From IMG/VR virus record IMGVR_UViG_3300042907_001071, positions 1 to 37,806 of that record: DNA of 37,806 nucleotides, one strand, 5' to 3'. The position numbers were made by a program, and so were the translations under genes. This document shows positions 2,146 through 37,771 of the stretch, in pieces. Origin of the DNA: a virus. A model generated the notes under the pieces. That model searched no databases and had not been told where the DNA came from. It was given only the letters and a program-made list of their open reading frames with translations. Positions within the stretch are counted from its first letter, which is position 1; each line of letters starts with the position of its first letter.

Positions 2146-2157
2146 TGTCGGGAGACA
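2146..2157 (+). promoter_or_regulatory. Shine-Dalgarno hairpin, copy 1 (portal gene)
   Basis: TGTC-GGGA-GACA can fold into a 4-bp stem closed by a GGGA (GNRA-type) loop. The loop and the first stem base carry the Shine-Dalgarno core GGGAG. The ATG of the portal gene follows after two bases (2160). The same element precedes the genes at 6705, 19664 and 21661, with the outer pair changing T-A or C-G while pairing is kept. Confidence 0.6.
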
Positions 2158-2159
2158 GC

Positions 2160-4238
2160 ATGGCTAAGAAGAAAGAGAAAGCACCGGATAAGTTCATTGC
2201 AACGGCTCATAAACGCTTTGCAATGGCGTCTGATTCGGAAAGCAAAGGGCGCAAAGAACGGCTCGACGACATCAAGTTTGTACGCTTAGGTGAGCAATGG
2301 CCTGAGTCAGTCAAACGTGATCGTGAACGCCCAGGCGCTGAACGTCCGATGCTGACGATTAACCGGCTGTTTCAATTTCGCAATCAGGTTATTAACGAGA
2401 TACGTCAGAATCGTCCGTCAATCCAATGTCGTCCGGTTGATGATGCAGCGGACGTTGATACAGCAGAAGTATTGCAAGGCTTGCTTCGGCATATTCAAGA
2501 TGTGAGTGGTGCTGATACCGTTTATGACATCGCAGCAGAATGGCAAGTGGATGCAGGACTTGGTTATTTTCGTATAGTCACTGACTATTGTGACCCTGAA
2601 AGCTTTGACCAAGATATCGTCATTAAACCGTGTGTGGATCCGTTTAAAGTCTATTTTGACCCAGAAAGCACCGAGTGTGATGGCTCTGATGCTAAGTGGG
2701 CGTTTGTCGTTGAAGAATGGACGCGCGACGATTTTGAAGCAAGCTATCCTGATGTTGATGTGACCAGTTGGGATGCTAACGGCTCTGGCGATTCAGTGGG
2801 CTGGTATTCAACGGAAGCAGTACGGATTGCAGAATACTTTGTGATTGACACCAAGCCACGCACACTGGCACTGTTACAAGATGGATCGGCGGCATGGAAG
2901 GATGAAATCCCCGAAGAATATCACCACATGATTGAGAAAGAACGCCAATCAGAAACCAAGATTTGCAAGTGGTACAAACTGGCAGGCGATCAGATTCTTG
3001 ATAAAACAGAATTACCCACCTCGTTTATCCCCGTCATTCCAGTTTATGGCTCTGAAGTCTGGATAGAAGGACGCAGACACTTGCACGGACTGACACGACA
3101 TGCCAAAGACCCTGCCAAGCTCTATAATTTCTTTCAATCGGCTAACGCGGAACTATTGGCGCTTGCTCCACGCGCACCTTACATCGCAGCAGAAGGTCAG
3201 CTTGACGGCTACGAACAAGAATGGCAAAACGCGAATAGAATCAACCAGTCAGTCTTAACTTATAACCCTGTTTCATTGCTTGGCAATATCTTAGGTCCAC
3301 CACGCAGAGAACAACCACCCAGCACTAACCCAGGCTTTGAATCAGCGATGAACAGAGCCGAGCTAGACATTAAGGCGACAATGGGTATGTTTGATGCAGC
3401 GATGGGTAACCATGAAAGCAATCAGTCCGGCAAAGCTATTCTCTCGCAACAACGTCAATCTTCAACGGGTAACTTTCACTTTAGCGACAATCTAGCGCGG
3501 TCATTGCGTCATGCTGGTCGTATTATGATCGAGATGATCCCCAAGATTTACGATACACAGCGCGTCGCCAGAATCATCGGTGAAGATGGTGAGCCTAAGA
3601 ACATACAACTCGATCCGAATCAACCACAAGCTAAAACAGAGCAAGAGGATGAGCAGGGCGAGATTAAGTCAATCTATAACCTCGGTGTCGGCAAGTATGA
3701 CGTCACTGTTGCTGTTGGGCCAAGCTATGCAACTAAGCGCCAAGAGGCTGCCGAAAGTATGATGGCTTTTGTACAAGCTGATCCAGCCATATTGCAGATT
3801 GCGGGTGATTTGATTGTGAAAAACATGGACTGGCCGGGGGCGCAAGAAATCAGCAAGCGCATGAAAGCCATGTTGCCACCACAAATCCAGCAAGCGGAAC
3901 AAGAGGGCGAGGCAAAGCCACAAATGGACCCGCAAATCGAGCAACAAATGAATCAGATGGCTGACCAGATGCAGCACATGAGTGAAGCCTTGCAACAAGC
4001 ACAAGCTAATGATAACGAGGCACAGCAAAAGCTTGAGATTGAAATATTCAAAGCTGAAACTGATCGCATGAAAGTAACGGCTGAAATCGCCACTAAACAG
4101 TTTGGCGTCATCCATCAGATGGCAATTGCTGATTTACAGCACACGATGCAAACCAGCACGCTAGGTGATGATAGTGCAGAGCTTGAGCAACAAGAACAAC
4201 AACCACAACCTATTCAGCAATTCCAAGAGGCGCAATAA
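2160..4238 (+). CDS. Portal protein (P22 gp1-like)
   Basis: The 692-residue protein matches the P22-type portal in length, position and style. It has the N-terminal ...LGEQWPESVKRDRE... segment, a clip/stem region with PRAPYIAAEGQLDGY, and a long Gln-rich, Met-rich coiled tail (about 550-690). Portals form the dodecameric ring at one capsid vertex through which DNA is packed and ejected. I chose ATG 2160 because it sits just after the hairpin with GGGAG; ATG 2136 in the same frame overlaps the terminase end and has no such site. The next gene overlaps its stop by one base. Confidence 0.88.
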   Translation: MAKKKEKAPDKFIATAHKRFAMASDSESKGRKERLDDIKFVRLGEQWPESVKRDRERPGAERPMLTINRLFQFRNQVINEIRQNRPSIQCRPVDDAADVDTAEVLQGLLRHIQDVSGADTVYDIAAEWQVDAGLGYFRIVTDYCDPESFDQDIVIKPCVDPFKVYFDPESTECDGSDAKWAFVVEEWTRDDFEASYPDVDVTSWDANGSGDSVGWYSTEAVRIAEYFVIDTKPRTLALLQDGSAAWKDEIPEEYHHMIEKERQSETKICKWYKLAGDQILDKTELPTSFIPVIPVYGSEVWIEGRRHLHGLTRHAKDPAKLYNFFQSANAELLALAPRAPYIAAEGQLDGYEQEWQNANRINQSVLTYNPVSLLGNILGPPRREQPPSTNPGFESAMNRAELDIKATMGMFDAAMGNHESNQSGKAILSQQRQSSTGNFHFSDNLARSLRHAGRIMIEMIPKIYDTQRVARIIGEDGEPKNIQLDPNQPQAKTEQEDEQGEIKSIYNLGVGKYDVTVAVGPSYATKRQEAAESMMAFVQADPAILQIAGDLIVKNMDWPGAQEISKRMKAMLPPQIQQAEQEGEAKPQMDPQIEQQMNQMADQMQHMSEALQQAQANDNEAQQKLEIEIFKAETDRMKVTAEIATKQFGVIHQMAIADLQHTMQTSTLGDDSAELEQQEQQPQPIQQFQEAQ

Positions 4239-4600: not shown

Positions 4601-6340
4601 ATGGGATTGCCATTTAACAAGCTTTACAAGTATTTGGGTGGCTTTAACCCGTTATCTTGGTTCGCCAAAAACGAACCCGGCGCCTGGTACGACCCCTCAG
4701 ATTTAACCACATTATTCCAAGACTCCGCAGGTACTCTACCTGCTGCCCTTGAGTATCCTGTCGGCTTGATGCTCGATAAGTCGAAAGGCTTGGCGCTAGG
4801 TGCTGAGTTGGTGACGAATGGGGACTTTAGTAATGGGACTACTGGGTGGAGTATATATTTATCTACTATTTCTAATGTTAATAATACATTAAGAGTGACA
4901 GCAGTAGCAGCAAATACCACAGCCTACGGTACGCAAGCTTTGACAGGGCTAGTTATTGGCTCGTGGTATGCCTTATCTATAACTCAAATCGTAGGAGCAG
5001 GTAGTTCGCTTATTTACAATTATGTTGGCCCAACTGCTTATTCTAATACATATCGAAATTCTTCTAGCCCTTCCACTAAAACAACGAATAGTTATTTTTT
5101 AGCTACAGCAACAACTTGCTATATAACGGTGGGAACATACGGGCCAGCTACTGAAAACTACGCAGACTTCGACAACATCTCCGTCCGCCAAATCGCAGGC
5201 AACCACGCCTTCCAAGCCACCAACGCTAACCGCCCGATACTGAGTGCGAGGGTTAATTTGCTGACTAAGACGGAGGATTTTAGTGATGCGGTTTGGAGTA
5301 AAACTCTATCACCCTGCACAGTAGCTAATAACCAAGTTATTGCTCCTGATGGTAATCTTACAGCAGGAGTGGTAACAGCAAGCGGTACTTATGGTGGTAT
5401 TTGTCAAATAAATACAAAACAAGCGACATCTTATACTCATAGTGTTATTTGTTATTTTAAGTCGGGTACTGTTTCTAAAAGTCGATTGACGCTTGCATCA
5501 ACAGGTTTAGTTAACGGTATTGGTGTTGATTTTATATTGAGCGGGATTGGTTCCTGCACTACCCCTGTAGCTTACGGTACTGGATGGAGTGGAGGAGCTG
5601 CAACCATAACGTCTATAAATAATGGTTGGTATTTGTGTACACTCACAGGCATATGCCCAGCCACAACTGATATTAATATAGTTGTTGGGCATGTAGGAAC
5701 TGCCGTGTCAGGAGATACTGTTGCTATCTGGCACCCAGACCTACGCCCCACCAACTCAGGCGCACTACTACCACCCTACCAGCGGGTCAACACAGCCTCA
5801 GACTATGACTCAGTAGGCTTTCCGCTGTATCTCAAGTGTAACGGTACATCAAGCGCAATGTCTACTAACAGCATTGACTTTACGGCTACGGATAAGATGA
5901 CTGTGGTGACTGGGGTTCGGAAGTTGAGTGAGCTTGGAACAATAATTATGGAATTAAGCGCAACCGCTAGTACAGGCGCTTTTCTAATGTTTTCCCCTAT
6001 AAATTCGTATGGGTACTATAGTGGGGGAACTGTTTTAGTAGACTTAAGAACACCTCTGAACTACCCACCTCCTAATTCTATTGTATTAACAGCACAATCA
6101 TCAATATCAACTCCGATAGCAACGATTCGAGTCAACAGTAGTCAAGTAGGAAAAAGCTCAACCACTCAAGGTTCGGGTAATTTCGGTAACTATCCGCTCT
6201 TTTTGTTTGCAAGAAATGGCACAACGTCAAGAATAGAAGCAAACTTCTACGGTGCCATCATCCGAGGCGCACAATCTGACACAGCCAGCGTTACTCAAAC
6301 CGAGAACTACATGGCTCAAAAAACAGGAATCACATTCTAA
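4601..6340 (+). CDS. Lectin-like virion/fibre protein with carbohydrate-binding-type modules, 579 aa
   Basis: The start (ATG 4601) follows AAGGTG. The N-terminal part has WYDPSDLTTLFQDSAGT and PVGLMLDKSKG, a conserved lead-in seen in many phage surface proteins. It is followed by a CBM-like beta-sandwich starting LVTNGDFSNGTTGW (about 70-200) and a second one starting NLLTKTEDFSDAVW (about 218-390). The C-terminal third (about 400-579) resembles a LamG/concanavalin-like lectin domain. There is no signal peptide. It is probably displayed on the virion and binds glycans. Its position between portal and scaffold is unusual for a receptor-binding protein. Domain calls come from sequence style rather than a search. 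Confidence 0.6.
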   Translation: MGLPFNKLYKYLGGFNPLSWFAKNEPGAWYDPSDLTTLFQDSAGTLPAALEYPVGLMLDKSKGLALGAELVTNGDFSNGTTGWSIYLSTISNVNNTLRVTAVAANTTAYGTQALTGLVIGSWYALSITQIVGAGSSLIYNYVGPTAYSNTYRNSSSPSTKTTNSYFLATATTCYITVGTYGPATENYADFDNISVRQIAGNHAFQATNANRPILSARVNLLTKTEDFSDAVWSKTLSPCTVANNQVIAPDGNLTAGVVTASGTYGGICQINTKQATSYTHSVICYFKSGTVSKSRLTLASTGLVNGIGVDFILSGIGSCTTPVAYGTGWSGGAATITSINNGWYLCTLTGICPATTDINIVVGHVGTAVSGDTVAIWHPDLRPTNSGALLPPYQRVNTASDYDSVGFPLYLKCNGTSSAMSTNSIDFTATDKMTVVTGVRKLSELGTIIMELSATASTGAFLMFSPINSYGYYSGGTVLVDLRTPLNYPPPNSIVLTAQSSISTPIATIRVNSSQVGKSSTTQGSGNFGNYPLFLFARNGTTSRIEANFYGAIIRGAQSDTASVTQTENYMAQKTGITF

Positions 6341-6688: not shown

Positions 6689-6700
6689 CGTCGGGAGACG
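6689..6700 (+). promoter_or_regulatory. Shine-Dalgarno hairpin, copy 2 (scaffold gene)
   Basis: CGTC-GGGA-GACG folds as a 4-bp stem with a GGGA loop, four bases before ATG 6705. Compared with copy 1, the outer pair is C-G in place of T-A, a compensatory change. A separate short hairpin, CGCC-AATA-GGCG (6670-6681), lies upstream in the same 44-bp gap. Confidence 0.6.
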
Positions 6701-6704
6701 CAGC

Positions 6705-7520
6705 ATGACCGTGAATGATGAAACGATAGTAATTGAAGCTCCACAAGATATGGCAGAAACAGATGCAGTTTTGCCAATTGAAAATGAAGTAATTGAACCG
6801 GAGGAGGAGAAAGTCCCCAAAGGTGTGCAAAAACGTATTGATGCCATCACCAAAGAAAAGTATGAAGAAAGGCGAGAGCGACAAGCCGCACAAGAGCGTG
6901 CTGACCGACTCGAACAAGAACTGCATGAATACCGAAATTCATCAAAACAACCGCAAGCTCCGACGGTAAAAGTTTTACAAGATGGTGCGCCTGATCCCGA
7001 TAGTTTTCCAGCAGGGCGCTATGATCCAGACTACCTTGAAGCACTGACAGACTACAAGGTTAATCAAATATTTAGTAATCAGCAAAAGAATGATATAATC
7101 GCGACAAAGCAACGTGATGTTATAACAATGCAAGAGCAAGCTAGGGAACAATATACCGATTATGACGTTACCGAAGCTGAATTTTTCCAACACCCTTTGA
7201 CCACTGTTCCAGCGTTCAGAGAGTTATTATTAGAAAGCGATAACCCCGCCGAGTTATCCTATTTCTTGGGTAAAAATCCAGAAGAAATGGACAAACTGGG
7301 TGAAATGACACCTGCACAAGCCACTCGATACATTGGGCGACTTGAGGCACAAATAGTACCGATCAAATCGGTTGAGCAGCCTAAACGGTCCGCGTCAACT
7401 GCACCAAAACCCATCGCTCCATTAGGGAGTGCCAAGACCTCCAATGTTATTACCGATCCTGCCGATGCTCAAAGCATGGCTGACTATGTGAAATTGCGGG
7501 AGGCACAAAGAAAAAGATAA
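6705..7520 (+). CDS. Scaffolding protein
   Basis: This 271-residue, highly charged protein lies directly upstream of the coat gene, the usual place for a scaffold. Residues 30-80 form a Glu/Lys/Arg-rich coiled coil (VPKGVQKRIDAITKEKYEERRERQ within it), and the middle has FPAGRYDPDYLEALTDYKV, a pattern common in scaffolds of P22-like phages. The C-terminal end is basic (KLREAQRKR), as expected for coat binding. It would direct procapsid assembly and leave before DNA packaging. Translation begins behind the hairpin element at 6689-6700. Confidence 0.8.
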   Translation: MTVNDETIVIEAPQDMAETDAVLPIENEVIEPEEEKVPKGVQKRIDAITKEKYEERRERQAAQERADRLEQELHEYRNSSKQPQAPTVKVLQDGAPDPDSFPAGRYDPDYLEALTDYKVNQIFSNQQKNDIIATKQRDVITMQEQAREQYTDYDVTEAEFFQHPLTTVPAFRELLLESDNPAELSYFLGKNPEEMDKLGEMTPAQATRYIGRLEAQIVPIKSVEQPKRSASTAPKPIAPLGSAKTSNVITDPADAQSMADYVKLREAQRKR

Positions 7521-7540: not shown

Positions 7541-7603
7541 GCGTCGTGATGACGCCTTAAACCAGTTCGACTGCTCATATTGAGCCAGCGTCGTGATGAC
7601 GCC
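7541..7603 (+). repeat. Twin hairpins upstream of the coat gene
   Basis: The 16-mer GCGTCGTGATGACGCC occurs twice, at 7541-7556 and 7588-7603, 47 bases apart. Each copy can fold as GCGTC-GTGAT-GACGC. The flanks GGCTC (7536-7540) and GAGCC (7582-7586) are also complementary. There is no U-run, so these are not ordinary terminators. They sit in the 108-base untranslated stretch before the most highly expressed gene, and may act in mRNA processing, stability or translation control. The stem resembles the CGTC/GACG of the SD hairpins. Confidence 0.6.
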
Positions 7604-19649: not shown

Positions 19650-19661
19650 CGTCGGGAGACG
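19650..19661 (+). promoter_or_regulatory. Shine-Dalgarno hairpin, copy 3 (tail fibre gene)
   Basis: CGTC-GGGA-GACG with GGGA loop, two bases before ATG 19664. Identical to copy 2 over 12 bases although the flanking sequence differs, which indicates that the element itself is what is conserved. Confidence 0.6.
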
Positions 19662-19663
19662 AC

Positions 19664-21322
19664 ATGACCGTAAAACTTGCACCAATTTTCAACGATGCCC
19701 AGCTTGATGACAGCGGATTGCCTTTATCGGGTGGTCTATTAACCTGGTATCAGGCGAGTAGTAGCACAGAATCTGTTACTTATACCGATAGCGCTGGTTA
19801 TGTACCGCAATCTAGCCCTATTGTGTTAAATGCGCGTGGTGAGCCTGATTATCCTATCTGGTTGACAACCGGGATTAATTACAAAGCGGTGCTGTCAGAT
19901 AGCACAGGCACCGTCATTAGAATAGTTGATAACTTGAGTGGTGTAAATGATACCAGCGCGCCTATTATCTCAGAGTGGGTGTTATTCACAGGTACTGCAG
20001 CCTATATTAGCGCAACATCATTTAGCGTAGTCGGTGACCAGACGAGCGTATTTACCGCGTCGCGCCGGGTAAAGGCGTCAGTATCGGGCGGTGTTTGTTA
20101 TGCGACGATCACAACTGCTGTTTATGCGTCGAGCAAAACAACGGTTACTATTGTAAATGATTCAGTAACACTAGATGCGGGCATGAGTTCAGCCTACTAT
20201 GGCTTTATTGATCCTACGCATCCAAGCTTTAACACGGCTGTATCGAGCTATGCGGCTACATCAGGATCATCGGGAACTTGCTCTGGTAATTCAGCTACTG
20301 CGACTACATCGGGAACTTGCTCTGGTAACTCAGTGACAGCGACTACAGCGGGAGCGTGTTCAGGCAATGCGGCTACAGCGACTACCTTTTCTGGCAACAC
20401 AACAAATTGGGCAACGCTTAGAACAACAGCTGTTGCTAATATGATGGGCTGGAAGAACTATGGTAATGGCCATGTTGTTTTTGATGCCTCTGCTGGAACT
20501 GCTCCTGACGGAACTGCGGCAAACAACACAAACCCAACTAATACATGGGTTGCAACGTATCCAACATTAATGGGTTGGAATGGTTCTACCACCTATGGTG
20601 TTCGTGTCGATAGTGCAAGGTTGGCAGATAGCGCCACTACAGCTACTACTGCTACTAATGCTGCTAATGCTACTAATGCTACTAACGCAGGGTATGCTAC
20701 CAGTGCTGGAACTTGTACAGGTAATTCAGCTACTGCTACAACTGCAACCAACGCTACAAATGCCAGTTATGCTACTTACGCTACAGATGCCGATGGGTCT
20801 TTTGTAATTTCTACGGCAACCCCTACCGCAACGCTGTATATAACTAGGACAAATGTAGATGGAACTTCAAATATTCAATTAACTAGTGGAAATGCTTCTG
20901 CTGGTAATACATATACCGCAAAGATAAGTAAAACTGCTGCTAATGGGGCGCTTACTGTTACCAACAATTCTGCAACAGGTGTGCAGTTGACCGCAGGGAA
21001 TAACACATGGACTGCGTTATCTGACGAGCGGCTAAAAGATATTATAGAACCTATAGAAAATGCGATAGAAAAAATCATCACACTAAACCCAGTAATTGGT
21101 AAATATAAAACAGATGAAGTTAATATTCGTAGATCTTTTTTAATCGCACAAGATGTTGAAAAAGTTTTTCCAGAAGCAATATCATATTCAAAAATATATG
21201 ACGATAATGATAAAACAGACGATATAGATTATATGAATTTGGCATATACGGATTTAGTTCCCCTTTTAGTCAAAGCTGTTCAAGAACTATCCGCAAAAGT
21301 AACCGCATTAGAGGTGCTGTGA
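19664..21322 (+). CDS. Tail fibre/spike with C-terminal self-cleaving chaperone (peptidase S74), 552 aa
   Basis: Residues 1-100 are a virion-anchoring domain of a type common in phage spikes (LDDSGLPLSGGLLTWYQA, then SPIVLNARGEPDYPIWLTTG). The middle is very rich in Ala, Thr, Asn, Gly and Ser, with short repeats (SGTCSGNSATATT and ATNATNA types), probably a fibrous shaft. The C-terminus from ALSDERLKDI (S453) to the end is an intramolecular chaperone of the endosialidase/S74 family, which trimerises the fibre and then cuts itself off before the conserved Ser-Asp. FLIAQDVEKVFPEAI supports this. It is the main candidate for receptor binding. Confidence 0.85.
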   Translation: MTVKLAPIFNDAQLDDSGLPLSGGLLTWYQASSSTESVTYTDSAGYVPQSSPIVLNARGEPDYPIWLTTGINYKAVLSDSTGTVIRIVDNLSGVNDTSAPIISEWVLFTGTAAYISATSFSVVGDQTSVFTASRRVKASVSGGVCYATITTAVYASSKTTVTIVNDSVTLDAGMSSAYYGFIDPTHPSFNTAVSSYAATSGSSGTCSGNSATATTSGTCSGNSVTATTAGACSGNAATATTFSGNTTNWATLRTTAVANMMGWKNYGNGHVVFDASAGTAPDGTAANNTNPTNTWVATYPTLMGWNGSTTYGVRVDSARLADSATTATTATNAANATNATNAGYATSAGTCTGNSATATTATNATNASYATYATDADGSFVISTATPTATLYITRTNVDGTSNIQLTSGNASAGNTYTAKISKTAANGALTVTNNSATGVQLTAGNNTWTALSDERLKDIIEPIENAIEKIITLNPVIGKYKTDEVNIRRSFLIAQDVEKVFPEAISYSKIYDDNDKTDDIDYMNLAYTDLVPLLVKAVQELSAKVTALEVL

Positions 21323-21525: not shown

Positions 21526-21680
21526 TAGCGTTAAGCCTATTGGTGTTATGTGGGTGTTCAGCGCATTATTCTTGTGGCCCAACCATAGCGCCCTTAGACG
21601 GGATTTATCAACTTAAACCAGATGGCTTGATGCTGTCAATTTACTGTCGGGAGACAGCATATGAAAAAATCTCTTATTAG
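21447..21680 (+). CDS. Possible small lipoprotein (spanin-like), start uncertain
   Basis: This frame encodes a good lipoprotein signal: NKGIIALSLLVLCGCSAHY, with a hydrophobic core and Cys in the context L-C-G-C. SCGPTIAPLDGIYQLKPDG follows, and it ends by overlapping the next gene by 20 bases. There is no ATG near the signal; TTG 21447 is the farthest open start, giving an extended N-terminus, while rarer starts (for example ATA behind AAAGG near 21520) would give a normal lipoprotein. Outer-membrane lipoproteins in lysis cassettes are often o-spanins, but this one lacks the usual proline-rich region. Confidence 0.35.
   Translation: MAEYFNLSIRCVGVLFAASATINKGIIALSLLVLCGCSAHYSCGPTIAPLDGIYQLKPDGLMLSIYCRETAYEKISY
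21645..21656 (+). promoter_or_regulatory. Shine-Dalgarno hairpin, copy 4 (lysis cassette gene)
   Basis: TGTC-GGGA-GACA, extended to five pairs by C21644 and G21657, stands four bases before ATG 21661. It lies inside the reading frame of the lipoprotein candidate, so translation of that frame would have to melt it. Confidence 0.6.
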
Positions 21681-21894
21681 TTTCTTAGCAAAACTTTTGC
21701 TCGGTGGATCTCTCTGGAACGATGCAAAAAGGTTAGTTCTTGATGCAACCGGTGCTACTCATTTAACAGGTGCTGAAAAACATCAGCGCGTTGTTGATGA
21801 TCTTCGTCAACTATTTGGCAATCTAGCAACACTTACACTCGATACCGCTGCCCAACTCGCTGCACAATGGGCATTAGGTGCTAAAAATGGCTGA
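21661..21894 (+). CDS. Small lysis-cassette protein of unknown function, 77 aa
   Basis: The start lies behind SD hairpin copy 4. The protein has an amphipathic, weakly hydrophobic start (MKKSLISFLAKLLLGGSLW), a soluble centre (HLTGAEKHQRVVDDLRQLFG) and a hydrophobic end (TLTLDTAAQLAAQWALGA). I associate this layout with small conserved proteins next to phage holin genes, but no biochemical role is known to me. It overlaps the following gene by eight bases if that gene starts at ATG 21887. Confidence 0.5.
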   Translation: MKKSLISFLAKLLLGGSLWNDAKRLVLDATGATHLTGAEKHQRVVDDLRQLFGNLATLTLDTAAQLAAQWALGAKNG

Positions 21895-22093
21895 CCCAGA
21901 CTTTCTCATGACCATTATCGGCATCCTAGTATCAATCTTAATTGTAATCATTGGCTGGATAGGTAGTCGAATTTATGAGCAGTTAGGTGAGATTAATATA
22001 ACGCTAACAAATATAGATAGGGAGCTTCGGCAGGAGCTGTCGAGAATCGACACCAGGCTAACTGTCGTTGAAACAAAGATTGGGCGGGTATGA
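21887..22093 (+). CDS. Membrane protein with one TM and coiled coil (holin accessory or i-spanin-like), 68 aa
   Basis: I use ATG 21887; GTG 21878 is nine bases upstream in frame. One strong membrane segment (FLMTIIGILVSILIVIIGWIG, about residues 5-25 in part) is followed by a charged coiled coil (NITLTNIDRELRQELSR, then IDTRLTVVETKIGRV). An N-terminal anchor with a helical tail is the plan of an inner-membrane spanin or of XhlA-type holin helpers, though it is short for a spanin. Its TGA overlaps the lysozyme ATG, tying it to lysis. Confidence 0.5.
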   Translation: MADPDFLMTIIGILVSILIVIIGWIGSRIYEQLGEINITLTNIDRELRQELSRIDTRLTVVETKIGRV

Positions 22094-22539
22094 ATTTAAT
22101 CGAGCGCATTAAAAAAGACGAGGGGTTTTCGGCTACTGTCTATAAATGCCCCAGTGGATTTTCAACCATTGCTTATGGGTATAACCTGGATGCAAACCCG
22201 CTGCGATTAAGCACATTAGAGATTGCCCACGCTCATACGAAAGGTATGCCGCAACATGAGGGTGAGAGACTGCTTAAATTGATGATTGATAATATTGAAA
22301 AAGACTTATCTGAAAAGTTAAGTTTCTGGGCTGATCTTGATAGCATTCGGAAAGATGTATTAATTAATATGGCTTATAACTTGGGTGTGGTTGGGTTGCT
22401 TAAATTTAAAATGACGCTTAATCACATTGGTAAGGGTGAGTACACACAAGCGGCTGATTGCATGATAAAAAGCTTATGGGCAAAACAGGTAAAAAGCCGA
22501 GCTGTTAGATTAGCCCGGCTGATGGAATTTGGCGTTTAA
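22090..22539 (+). CDS. Endolysin, T4-type lysozyme (GH24), with Cys in the Asp20 position
   Basis: The 149-residue protein aligns by eye with T4 lysozyme: MNLIERIKKDEGF gives catalytic E11, and FSTIAYGYN gives T26. Between them T4 has D20, but here YKCPSGF has C20. It cleaves peptidoglycan glycan strands to free progeny. There is no signal or SAR segment, so it needs a holin. Later motifs (LINMAYNLGVVGLLKFKMTL, in parts) match the family, and the length is about that of T4 lysozyme. The stop overlaps by four bases the convergent gene on the other strand. Confidence 0.9.
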   Translation: MNLIERIKKDEGFSATVYKCPSGFSTIAYGYNLDANPLRLSTLEIAHAHTKGMPQHEGERLLKLMIDNIEKDLSEKLSFWADLDSIRKDVLINMAYNLGVVGLLKFKMTLNHIGKGEYTQAADCMIKSLWAKQVKSRAVRLARLMEFGV

Positions 22540-36941: not shown

Positions 36942-37025
36942 ATGACTGAACTATTTTCCATCCCTTTTTATTTGTCAGTAATTATATTTATGTTTGTCAT
37001 GTATCAGCTAAATCGGTGGCCTTGA
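36942..37025 (+). CDS. Very small membrane peptide, 27 aa
   Basis: The frame from ATG 36942 (two bases after the previous stop) to TGA 37023-37025 encodes MTELFSIPFYLSVIIF and MFVMYQLNRWP, nearly all one membrane helix. Its stop overlaps the start of the next gene (TGATG). The exact fit between two genes and the hydrophobic content favour a real peptide. It would insert in the inner membrane; role unknown. Confidence 0.45.
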   Translation: MTELFSIPFYLSVIIFMFVMYQLNRWP

Positions 37026-37771
37026 TGATTCATTATCACGGTACGCCAATTGGTGGCAGTCGCCAAGATGCTGCGCGTTTCTTAGTGGGTAGACATGCTC
37101 TAATACCATTTGGACGGCAAGATGATTTAGGTGCTGTGCTGGAATTTTGCCAAACATTCTGTGTTGATAATGGCGCGTTCAGTCACTGGAAAAGTGGTAA
37201 AGGGAAAATTGATTTTGATGCTTATTTAAGTTGGGCTGAATCGTTGCGGAAACATCCATCATTTGATTGGGCGCTTATTCCTGACATTATTGATGGAACA
37301 GAAGAAGATAATCTTGCATGGGTGAATTTGTGGGTAAGGTCTGGCACTCGTTGCAAAGGTGTTCCAATATGGCATATGCACGAATCATTTGAATACCTTG
37401 AATGGCTAGTCGATAGTTTTGAAATTGTTGCGCTTGGTAGTTCAGGCGATTACTCAAGTCCTGGCACAAAAAAATGGTGGGGAAAAATGACGGACGCTAT
37501 GCGGGTTATTTGTGATGATGAAGGCAGGCCAAAATGCAAATTACATGGGTTACGAATGCTAGATCCTGAGATATTTACACGATTGCCGCTTTCATCTGCT
37601 GATAGCACCAATGCCGCCGTTAACTGTGGATCACTTTCACGGTTTGGAATGTACACCCCTGCGACATCATCGCAACGAACTGCCGTAATAGCGGACAGAA
37701 TTGAGCAAAACAATTCATCACAAGTTTTTATTGGTTATCAAACACAAGATCTATTTGAGTTGAGCGCATGA
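37025..37771 (+). CDS. TGT/DpdA-like protein (possible 7-deazaguanine DNA-modification enzyme), 248 aa
   Basis: I start at ATG 37025, overlapping the preceding TGA; GTG 37016 is a longer option. The order of motifs resembles the tRNA-guanine transglycosylase fold of the DpdA family: VDNGAFS with D48, WALIPDIIDG with D87, VPIWHMHESFEYLEW, VALGSSGDYS, KLHGLRM and LPLSSADSTN with D193. DpdA swaps guanine in DNA for a 7-deazaguanine base. The protein is shorter than many family members, and no queC/D/E or folE gene is present here, so the base would have to come from the host. This is inferred from motif order only. Confidence 0.55.
   Translation: MIHYHGTPIGGSRQDAARFLVGRHALIPFGRQDDLGAVLEFCQTFCVDNGAFSHWKSGKGKIDFDAYLSWAESLRKHPSFDWALIPDIIDGTEEDNLAWVNLWVRSGTRCKGVPIWHMHESFEYLEWLVDSFEIVALGSSGDYSSPGTKKWWGKMTDAMRVICDDEGRPKCKLHGLRMLDPEIFTRLPLSSADSTNAAVNCGSLSRFGMYTPATSSQRTAVIADRIEQNNSSQVFIGYQTQDLFELSA

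Follow-up and report, generated by a model that had tools for sequence, protein, structure and literature searches.

Hairpins at four late-gene starts

The window analysed here is the whole of an IMG/VR virus record, 37,806 bases from a temperate P22-like podovirus, and encodes terminase, portal, scaffold, a P22-type coat protein, head closure, an S74 fibre, endolysin, integrase and repressor. Megablast of the window against phages gave no match. Four of its late genes begin immediately downstream of a short hairpin that carries a Shine-Dalgarno (SD) sequence, the element considered in this report:

2146..2157, + strand: SD hairpin TGTC-GGGA-GACA (TGTCGGGAGACA), before the portal ATG at 2160
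2160..4238, + strand: portal gene (phrog_156, E 1.5e-146)
6689..6700, + strand: SD hairpin CGTC-GGGA-GACG (CGTCGGGAGACG), before the scaffold ATG at 6705
6705..7520, + strand: head scaffolding protein gene (phrog_8865, E 2.2e-30)
19650..19661, + strand: SD hairpin CGTC-GGGA-GACG (CGTCGGGAGACG), before the tail fibre ATG at 19664
19664..21322, + strand: tail fibre gene with an S74 chaperone domain (PF13884; phrog_5481)
21645..21656, + strand: SD hairpin TGTC-GGGA-GACA (TGTCGGGAGACA), before the ATG at 21661
21661..21894, + strand: open reading frame (ORF) of 77 amino acids with no family match, upstream of a probable endolysin gene

A preliminary description, made from the sequence alone, had placed hairpins 2-4 nucleotides (nt) before an ATG at these four sites, and exact matching bears this out: YGTCGGGAGACR occurs exactly four times in the 37,806 bases, always on the + strand, with spacers of 2, 4, 2 and 4 nt to the ATGs at 2160, 6705, 19664 and 21661, against a mean of 0.01 matches (maximum 1) in dinucleotide shuffles of the window. 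A GGGA loop on a paired stem, fitting the GNRA tetraloop class, is present at all four sites, and at 21645 a flanking C-G pair (21644-21657) lengthens the stem to five pairs. Flanks and spacers vary among the four copies, which are therefore not one recently copied leader. The further statement that no other late gene has the element holds for SD hairpins: none with a stem of 4 bp or longer and an SD loop of 3-6 nt turned up when the other late-gene starts of the window were scanned. The names given earlier to the portal, scaffold and S74 tail fibre genes agree with their matches to phrog_156, phrog_8865 and PF13884, but no family match supports the name of lysis gene for the ORF at 21661, which lies a short way upstream of the probable endolysin gene (endolysin match for 22090-22539).

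Loci of relatives are designated here by L numbers. L005, a near-identical relative, carries all four of its copies on one strand of a 37 kb contig and keeps the portal hairpin, with A-T as the fifth pair. At the fourth site of the window (21630-21660) the SD hairpin has a potential competitor, an 8-bp stem between GACAGCAT and a ATGCTGTC lying upstream. In L252 the same SD hairpin precedes the homologous 77-residue ORF in a locus without the upstream ATGCTGTC copy, and a two-state switch at this site, having no support from conservation, was rejected. Portal genes of L008, L009 and L010 have no SD hairpin; before their ATG stands another common leader, (A/C)CCGC-N4-GCGAGT, with freely varying loop letters.

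Conservation of pairing, loop and position

The cleanest test of the pairing is provided by the scaffold start, where relatives were collected by protein homology and not by motif. The hairpin there reads CGTC-GGGA-GACG in the window and in L010, CGGC-AGAG-GCCG in L008, CGCC-GGGA-GGCG in L537 and L543, and TGCC-TGGA-GGCA in L526; L006 and L007 have CGTC-AGAG-GACG at the equivalent place, preceding an inserted ORF. A second clade (clade 2), made up of distant podovirus-like contigs, has TGTC-GGGA-GACA in every locus listed but L618, where the hairpin is TGTC-TGGA-GACA. Across eight distinct orthologous scaffold sequences the four pairs are kept in 100%, two of them with changes on both sides, and the covariation score of the site was beaten by 0 of 500 shuffles. 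The varying pairs are the outer pair, the second pair from the loop and the fifth pair, whereas the closing C-G and the third pair, G-C, are invariant. The T-A to C-G exchange of the outer pair reported earlier is one of several. The SD is always present, with GGGA, TGGA and AGAG loops alike, so that assignment of the loop to the GNRA class stands at the four window sites but is not absolute among orthologs, a minority of which have TGGA or AGAG. Compensatory changes with SD and spacing kept, as a structured ribosome-binding site calls for, are thus seen here. The preliminary description had named retention of GGGAG with loss of pairing as the outcome that would count against it; relatives bearing the hairpin keep the pairing, and many others have no hairpin. 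In L006, L008, L010, L526, L537 and L543 the hairpin lies within the last portal codons, and the overlapped residues vary (TSGDAQ, TAEAAQ, TPGGAQ, TSEDAQ, LPGGMQ) while RNA pairing and SD persist, a pattern that points to selection acting on the RNA. The element was absent from eight GenBank records of P22-like phages, and no named phage carrying it was found.

In the loci collected by homology, SD hairpins with 4-bp stems are concentrated at gene starts. They occur at 10 of 84 start-associated NGGAG sites of clade 1 versus 3 of 789 others (p 9e-9, somewhat too small because the clade counts include contigs fetched twice, L005/L525 and L008/L544), and at 30 of 45 start-associated sites of clade 2 versus 14 of 342 others. 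No start excess was seen in more distant clade-1 scaffold homologues or in random viral loci, and a distant clade-2 set gave a weak excess (6 of 149), all from one repeated AGGA-loop site.

Matches to variants of the pattern were also compared across viral contigs, a site being scored as start-like if an ATG lay 1-9 nt downstream, if the frame opened by it ran for 60 codons or more and extended little upstream, and if no long ORF overlapped it. All counts from this survey are among the matches listed, about 120 per pattern, and are fractions rather than prevalences. TGTC-GGGA-GACA was start-like at 40 of 109 distinct sites (37%), the mispaired CGTC-GGGA-GACA at 10 of 99 (p 5e-6 against the paired TGTC stem), the paired stem carrying AGGA, which is a stronger SD, at 12 of 107, and the reversed loop at 1 of 100. 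With both the mispaired stem and the AGGA loop low, the enrichment is not accounted for by the SD or the stem on its own and belongs to the stem in combination with the GGGA loop; GGGA is favoured over the stronger SD in the same stem, and this choice may be explained by the fact that, among the eight GNRA loops closed by G, GGGA alone spells GGAG. Matches in bacterial genomes were start-like at background level (8 of 117), the few that were so not being specific to phage structural genes. The genes downstream of the viral sites encode portal, scaffold, major head protein and head-tail adaptor in P22-like, T7-like and other phages, and copies within a record, four or five per genome, share one strand. 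These observations support an RNA-level, strand-specific element at gene starts. Contigs of 4-7 kb with ORFs of 76-82 residues were considered as microviruses, an assignment that was dropped, their genes being portal and major head protein.

The bases just outside the four-pair pattern were left free by the search. A Watson-Crick fifth pair is formed at 30 of 46 start-like TGTC sites (A-T 19, T-A 8, C-G 3), with a shuffle mean of 13.5, and at 0 of 10 mispaired controls. After clustering of the downstream proteins, about 20 of 28 independent families have the fifth pair versus 9.0 expected, in every resampling. A sixth pair is found in 0 of 30, chance level being about one quarter. With a fifth pair enriched and a sixth never formed, the helix is one of four or five pairs that then stops.

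Copies away from start codons

Several relatives carry the hairpin where it is not the SD of a gene. In clade 2 a conserved CTGTC-GGGA-GACAG lies a few bases after the scaffold stop codon and about 180 nt before the ATG of the major capsid protein (MCP) gene, with no start codon in register; in L211 the same place is occupied by ACGTC-GTGA-GACGT, in which the GNRA loop is kept and the SD is lost. It belongs to a conserved, apparently structured scaffold-MCP leader of about 180 nt (L603 6775-6957, L211 6182-6370 and relatives), which contains a second covarying helix and had no credible Rfam match. In L214 and L231 the hairpin is 13 nt from the ATG and a separate SD is present. The scaffold-MCP gap of the window itself holds two copies of a hairpin of a related class, which the preliminary description had overlooked:

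7541..7555, + strand: MCP-leader hairpin GCGTC-GTGAT-GACGC, copy 1, not an SD
7588..7602, + strand: MCP-leader hairpin GCGTC-GTGAT-GACGC, copy 2, not an SD

This hairpin recurs in place in L526, L537, L543, L544, L010, L531, L006 and L546, always with the loop GTGAT, and is absent from many relatives. Its stem is CTGTC/GACAG in L531 and includes wobble pairs in L006 and L546, which suggests covariation across a small number of sequences. Copies without a start codon and those in the MCP leader are more in keeping with a hairpin that acts in its own right, for example as an operator.

A proposed structured ribosome-binding site and its alternatives

Predicted folding energies of the hairpins range from -1.6 to -6.0 kcal/mol, and in most 80-nt stretches around them the hairpin predominates over other local folds. 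The four SDs of the window have predicted unpaired probabilities of 0.51-0.77, higher than most other late SDs there. With the coat hairpin of MS2, energies of -6.6 to -7.9 left expression unlimited and one of -9.5 reduced it to 20% (PMC9894550); a sixth pair added to the A-T type is predicted to give -6.6 kcal/mol. Energies below the range that limits MS2 imply that the ribosome should open these stems easily, and protein S1 is able to unfold structured mRNA on the 30S subunit (PMC3858243).

We assign a probability of about 0.5 to the reading that the element is a structured ribosome-binding site showing GGAG from a GNRA tetraloop on a weak stem; its computed part consists of position, strand, covariation, limited stem length and loop preference. 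On a late phage mRNA, a stem of 4-5 bp closed by C-G bears the tetraloop GGGA, and loop and closing G together spell GGAG, so that the hairpin itself would serve as the SD, which in the window precedes the start codon by 5-7 nt. In the GNRA loop the last three bases (GGA) may be stacked on the 3' strand, their pairing edges facing out, so that the anti-SD of the ribosomal RNA could pair with the loop first and open the weak stem afterwards. The stem would prevent pairing of the SD elsewhere without blocking initiation, and the chosen late genes would gain an initiation site independent of its surroundings. Several facts weigh against this interpretation. A pure SD role leaves the clade 2 copies after the scaffold gene and those of L214 and L231 unexplained, and the hairpin is missing at the scaffold start of many close relatives, so it is gained and lost. 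The CGTC/GACG form is not enriched in the pattern survey (start-like at 13 of 105 versus 10 of 99 for the mispaired stem), so that the two CG copies of the window rest on the clade evidence; at sites found by pattern the first four pairs were fixed by the search; and within the window the fifth pair is formed at the 21645 site only.

If instead a phage or host RNA-binding protein read the GTC-GNRA-GAC hairpin and repressed or protected the late genes jointly, the element would be a translational operator. Such an operator would account for finding four or five copies to a genome, all on a single strand, for a loop whose identity counts beyond SD strength, for the invariant closing C-G and third G-C pairs, and for a stem that alone appears too weak for repression. 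The copies without a start codon, including the one in L211 that keeps GNRA and loses the SD, and the related covarying hairpin in the MCP leader are the reason why this explanation is kept as a possible, if clearly less probable, alternative. Against it, the TGGA and AGAG loops at orthologous sites retain the SD and not GNRA, the element precedes unrelated genes in phages (P22-like, T7-like and others) that are not known to share a protein, and no candidate binder was found, nor a CsrA homologue in the window. Of the two readings offered in the preliminary description, a ribosome site presented by the loop is a better fit than an operator. More tentatively still, a small GTC-GNRA-GAC module in the late mRNAs of unrelated tailed phages might be read by a shared trans-acting factor coordinating structural genes at translation, with the SD built in at start codons and left out in the MCP leader.

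The remaining explanations are unlikely to differing degrees. GGGA-loop sites have the geometry that can be cut by an endoribonuclease of the RegB kind, with GGA free and the fourth G constrained (PMC3014915), and late mRNAs might be inactivated or processed in this way; however, AGAG-loop orthologs have no GGAG, T4 late transcripts resist RegB (PMC3014915), and the RegB profile had no match in the window, a weak point as it matched no control genome either. Such a target is improbable. It would be no more probable that ordinary SDs lie in chance inverted repeats, or in recent copies of one leader, with unselected pairing: the copies do share a GTCGGGAGAC core, and random viral loci, the mispair-control group, have no enrichment of SD hairpins at starts, but changes on both sides at orthologous sites, a fifth pair that was not searched for, the lack of enrichment of the mispaired stem, and flanks and spacers that vary between copies speak against it. 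A short weak stem at the SD could suggest an RNA thermometer or cis-acting attenuator, with a stem that would itself limit translation and melt with temperature; this is about as improbable, the SD being in the loop rather than the stem and the energies below the range that limits MS2 coat translation. Least probable of all is a palindrome acting at the DNA level, for example a regulator or promoter site: TGTC-N4-GACA is indeed an inverted repeat in DNA, but the loop orientation is fixed, spacing to the ATG is of the SD type and the copies of a record lie on one strand. A T7-type promoter with the start sequence GGGAGA was rejected, there being no conserved upstream block and the site sitting at the SD. 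The P22 scaffold protein autoregulates its own synthesis; a link of the scaffold site to this autoregulation was likewise set aside, as the element also precedes unrelated genes and no open paper on it was found.

Comparison with known systems places the element among structured phage translation initiation regions, as a variant for which no family membership is claimed. Rfam 15 gave 0 matches in the window and two implausible ones (E up to 5) in the sites and their relatives. In the open papers searched the 10-mer was not described as a phage element; papers containing it were unrelated, and general searches gave T4 and ribosome reviews. Lambdoid boxB, with a 5-bp stem, a GNRA-like loop and several copies, resembles the element in these respects, and the MCP-leader hairpin is similarly a 15-mer with a 5-nt loop; unlike boxB, the element stands at late gene starts and carries an SD. 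The MS2 replicase operator is a further phage hairpin that includes a GGAG SD. The MS2 coat hairpin (PMC9894550) is likewise a phage hairpin with a GGAG SD whose weak stems do not limit initiation, but it spans 27 nt with the start codon inside, against 12-14 nt with the start codon outside here. Structured initiation regions of T4 are inhibitory in e, soc, 49 and I-TevI and enhancing in 25 and 38 (PMC3014915); they too are cis RNA structures at phage gene starts conserved among relatives, but in them a helix buries the SD or the start codon, or the structure forms a bridge from SD to AUG, whereas here the SD is in a tetraloop on a stem of 4-5 bp that recurs before several genes of one genome. 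With the SD mostly in the loop and stems of the low stability given above, the hairpins do not resemble the inhibitory T4 type. CsrA/RsmE sites present GGA in an ARGGAU hexaloop (PMC9111926), and so resemble the element in having GGA in a hairpin loop overlapping the SD; they differ from its NGGA tetraloop with C-G closing, in which AGGA is not favoured and which in the AGAG orthologs (L006-L008) has no GGA. The sequence and fold of a RegB target (GGAG with GGA unpaired and the fourth G constrained) are found at the GGGA sites and not in the AGAG orthologs, and the genes concerned here are late ones.

Structure at ribosome-binding sites is usually seen as an obstacle, yet ahead of portal, scaffold and major head protein genes phages have repeatedly kept an SD in a hairpin of limited stability. 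On the sequence evidence, the hairpin probably shapes how these virus proteins are made. As a structured ribosome-binding site, it would be a natural, portable initiation-site design, protected from interference by the RNA around it; as the target of a protein, it would mark an unrecognised translational regulon of phage assembly genes. The covariation also shows that position, covariation and control patterns, taken together, can reveal very short RNA elements, below the size usual in family searches.

Two other genes of the window deserve mention. An ORF of 579 amino acids (4601-6340) between portal and scaffold has no PHROG or Pfam match. The gene at 37016-37771, a match to queuine tRNA-ribosyltransferase (phrog_887), is cargo of a kind unusual in P22-like phages.
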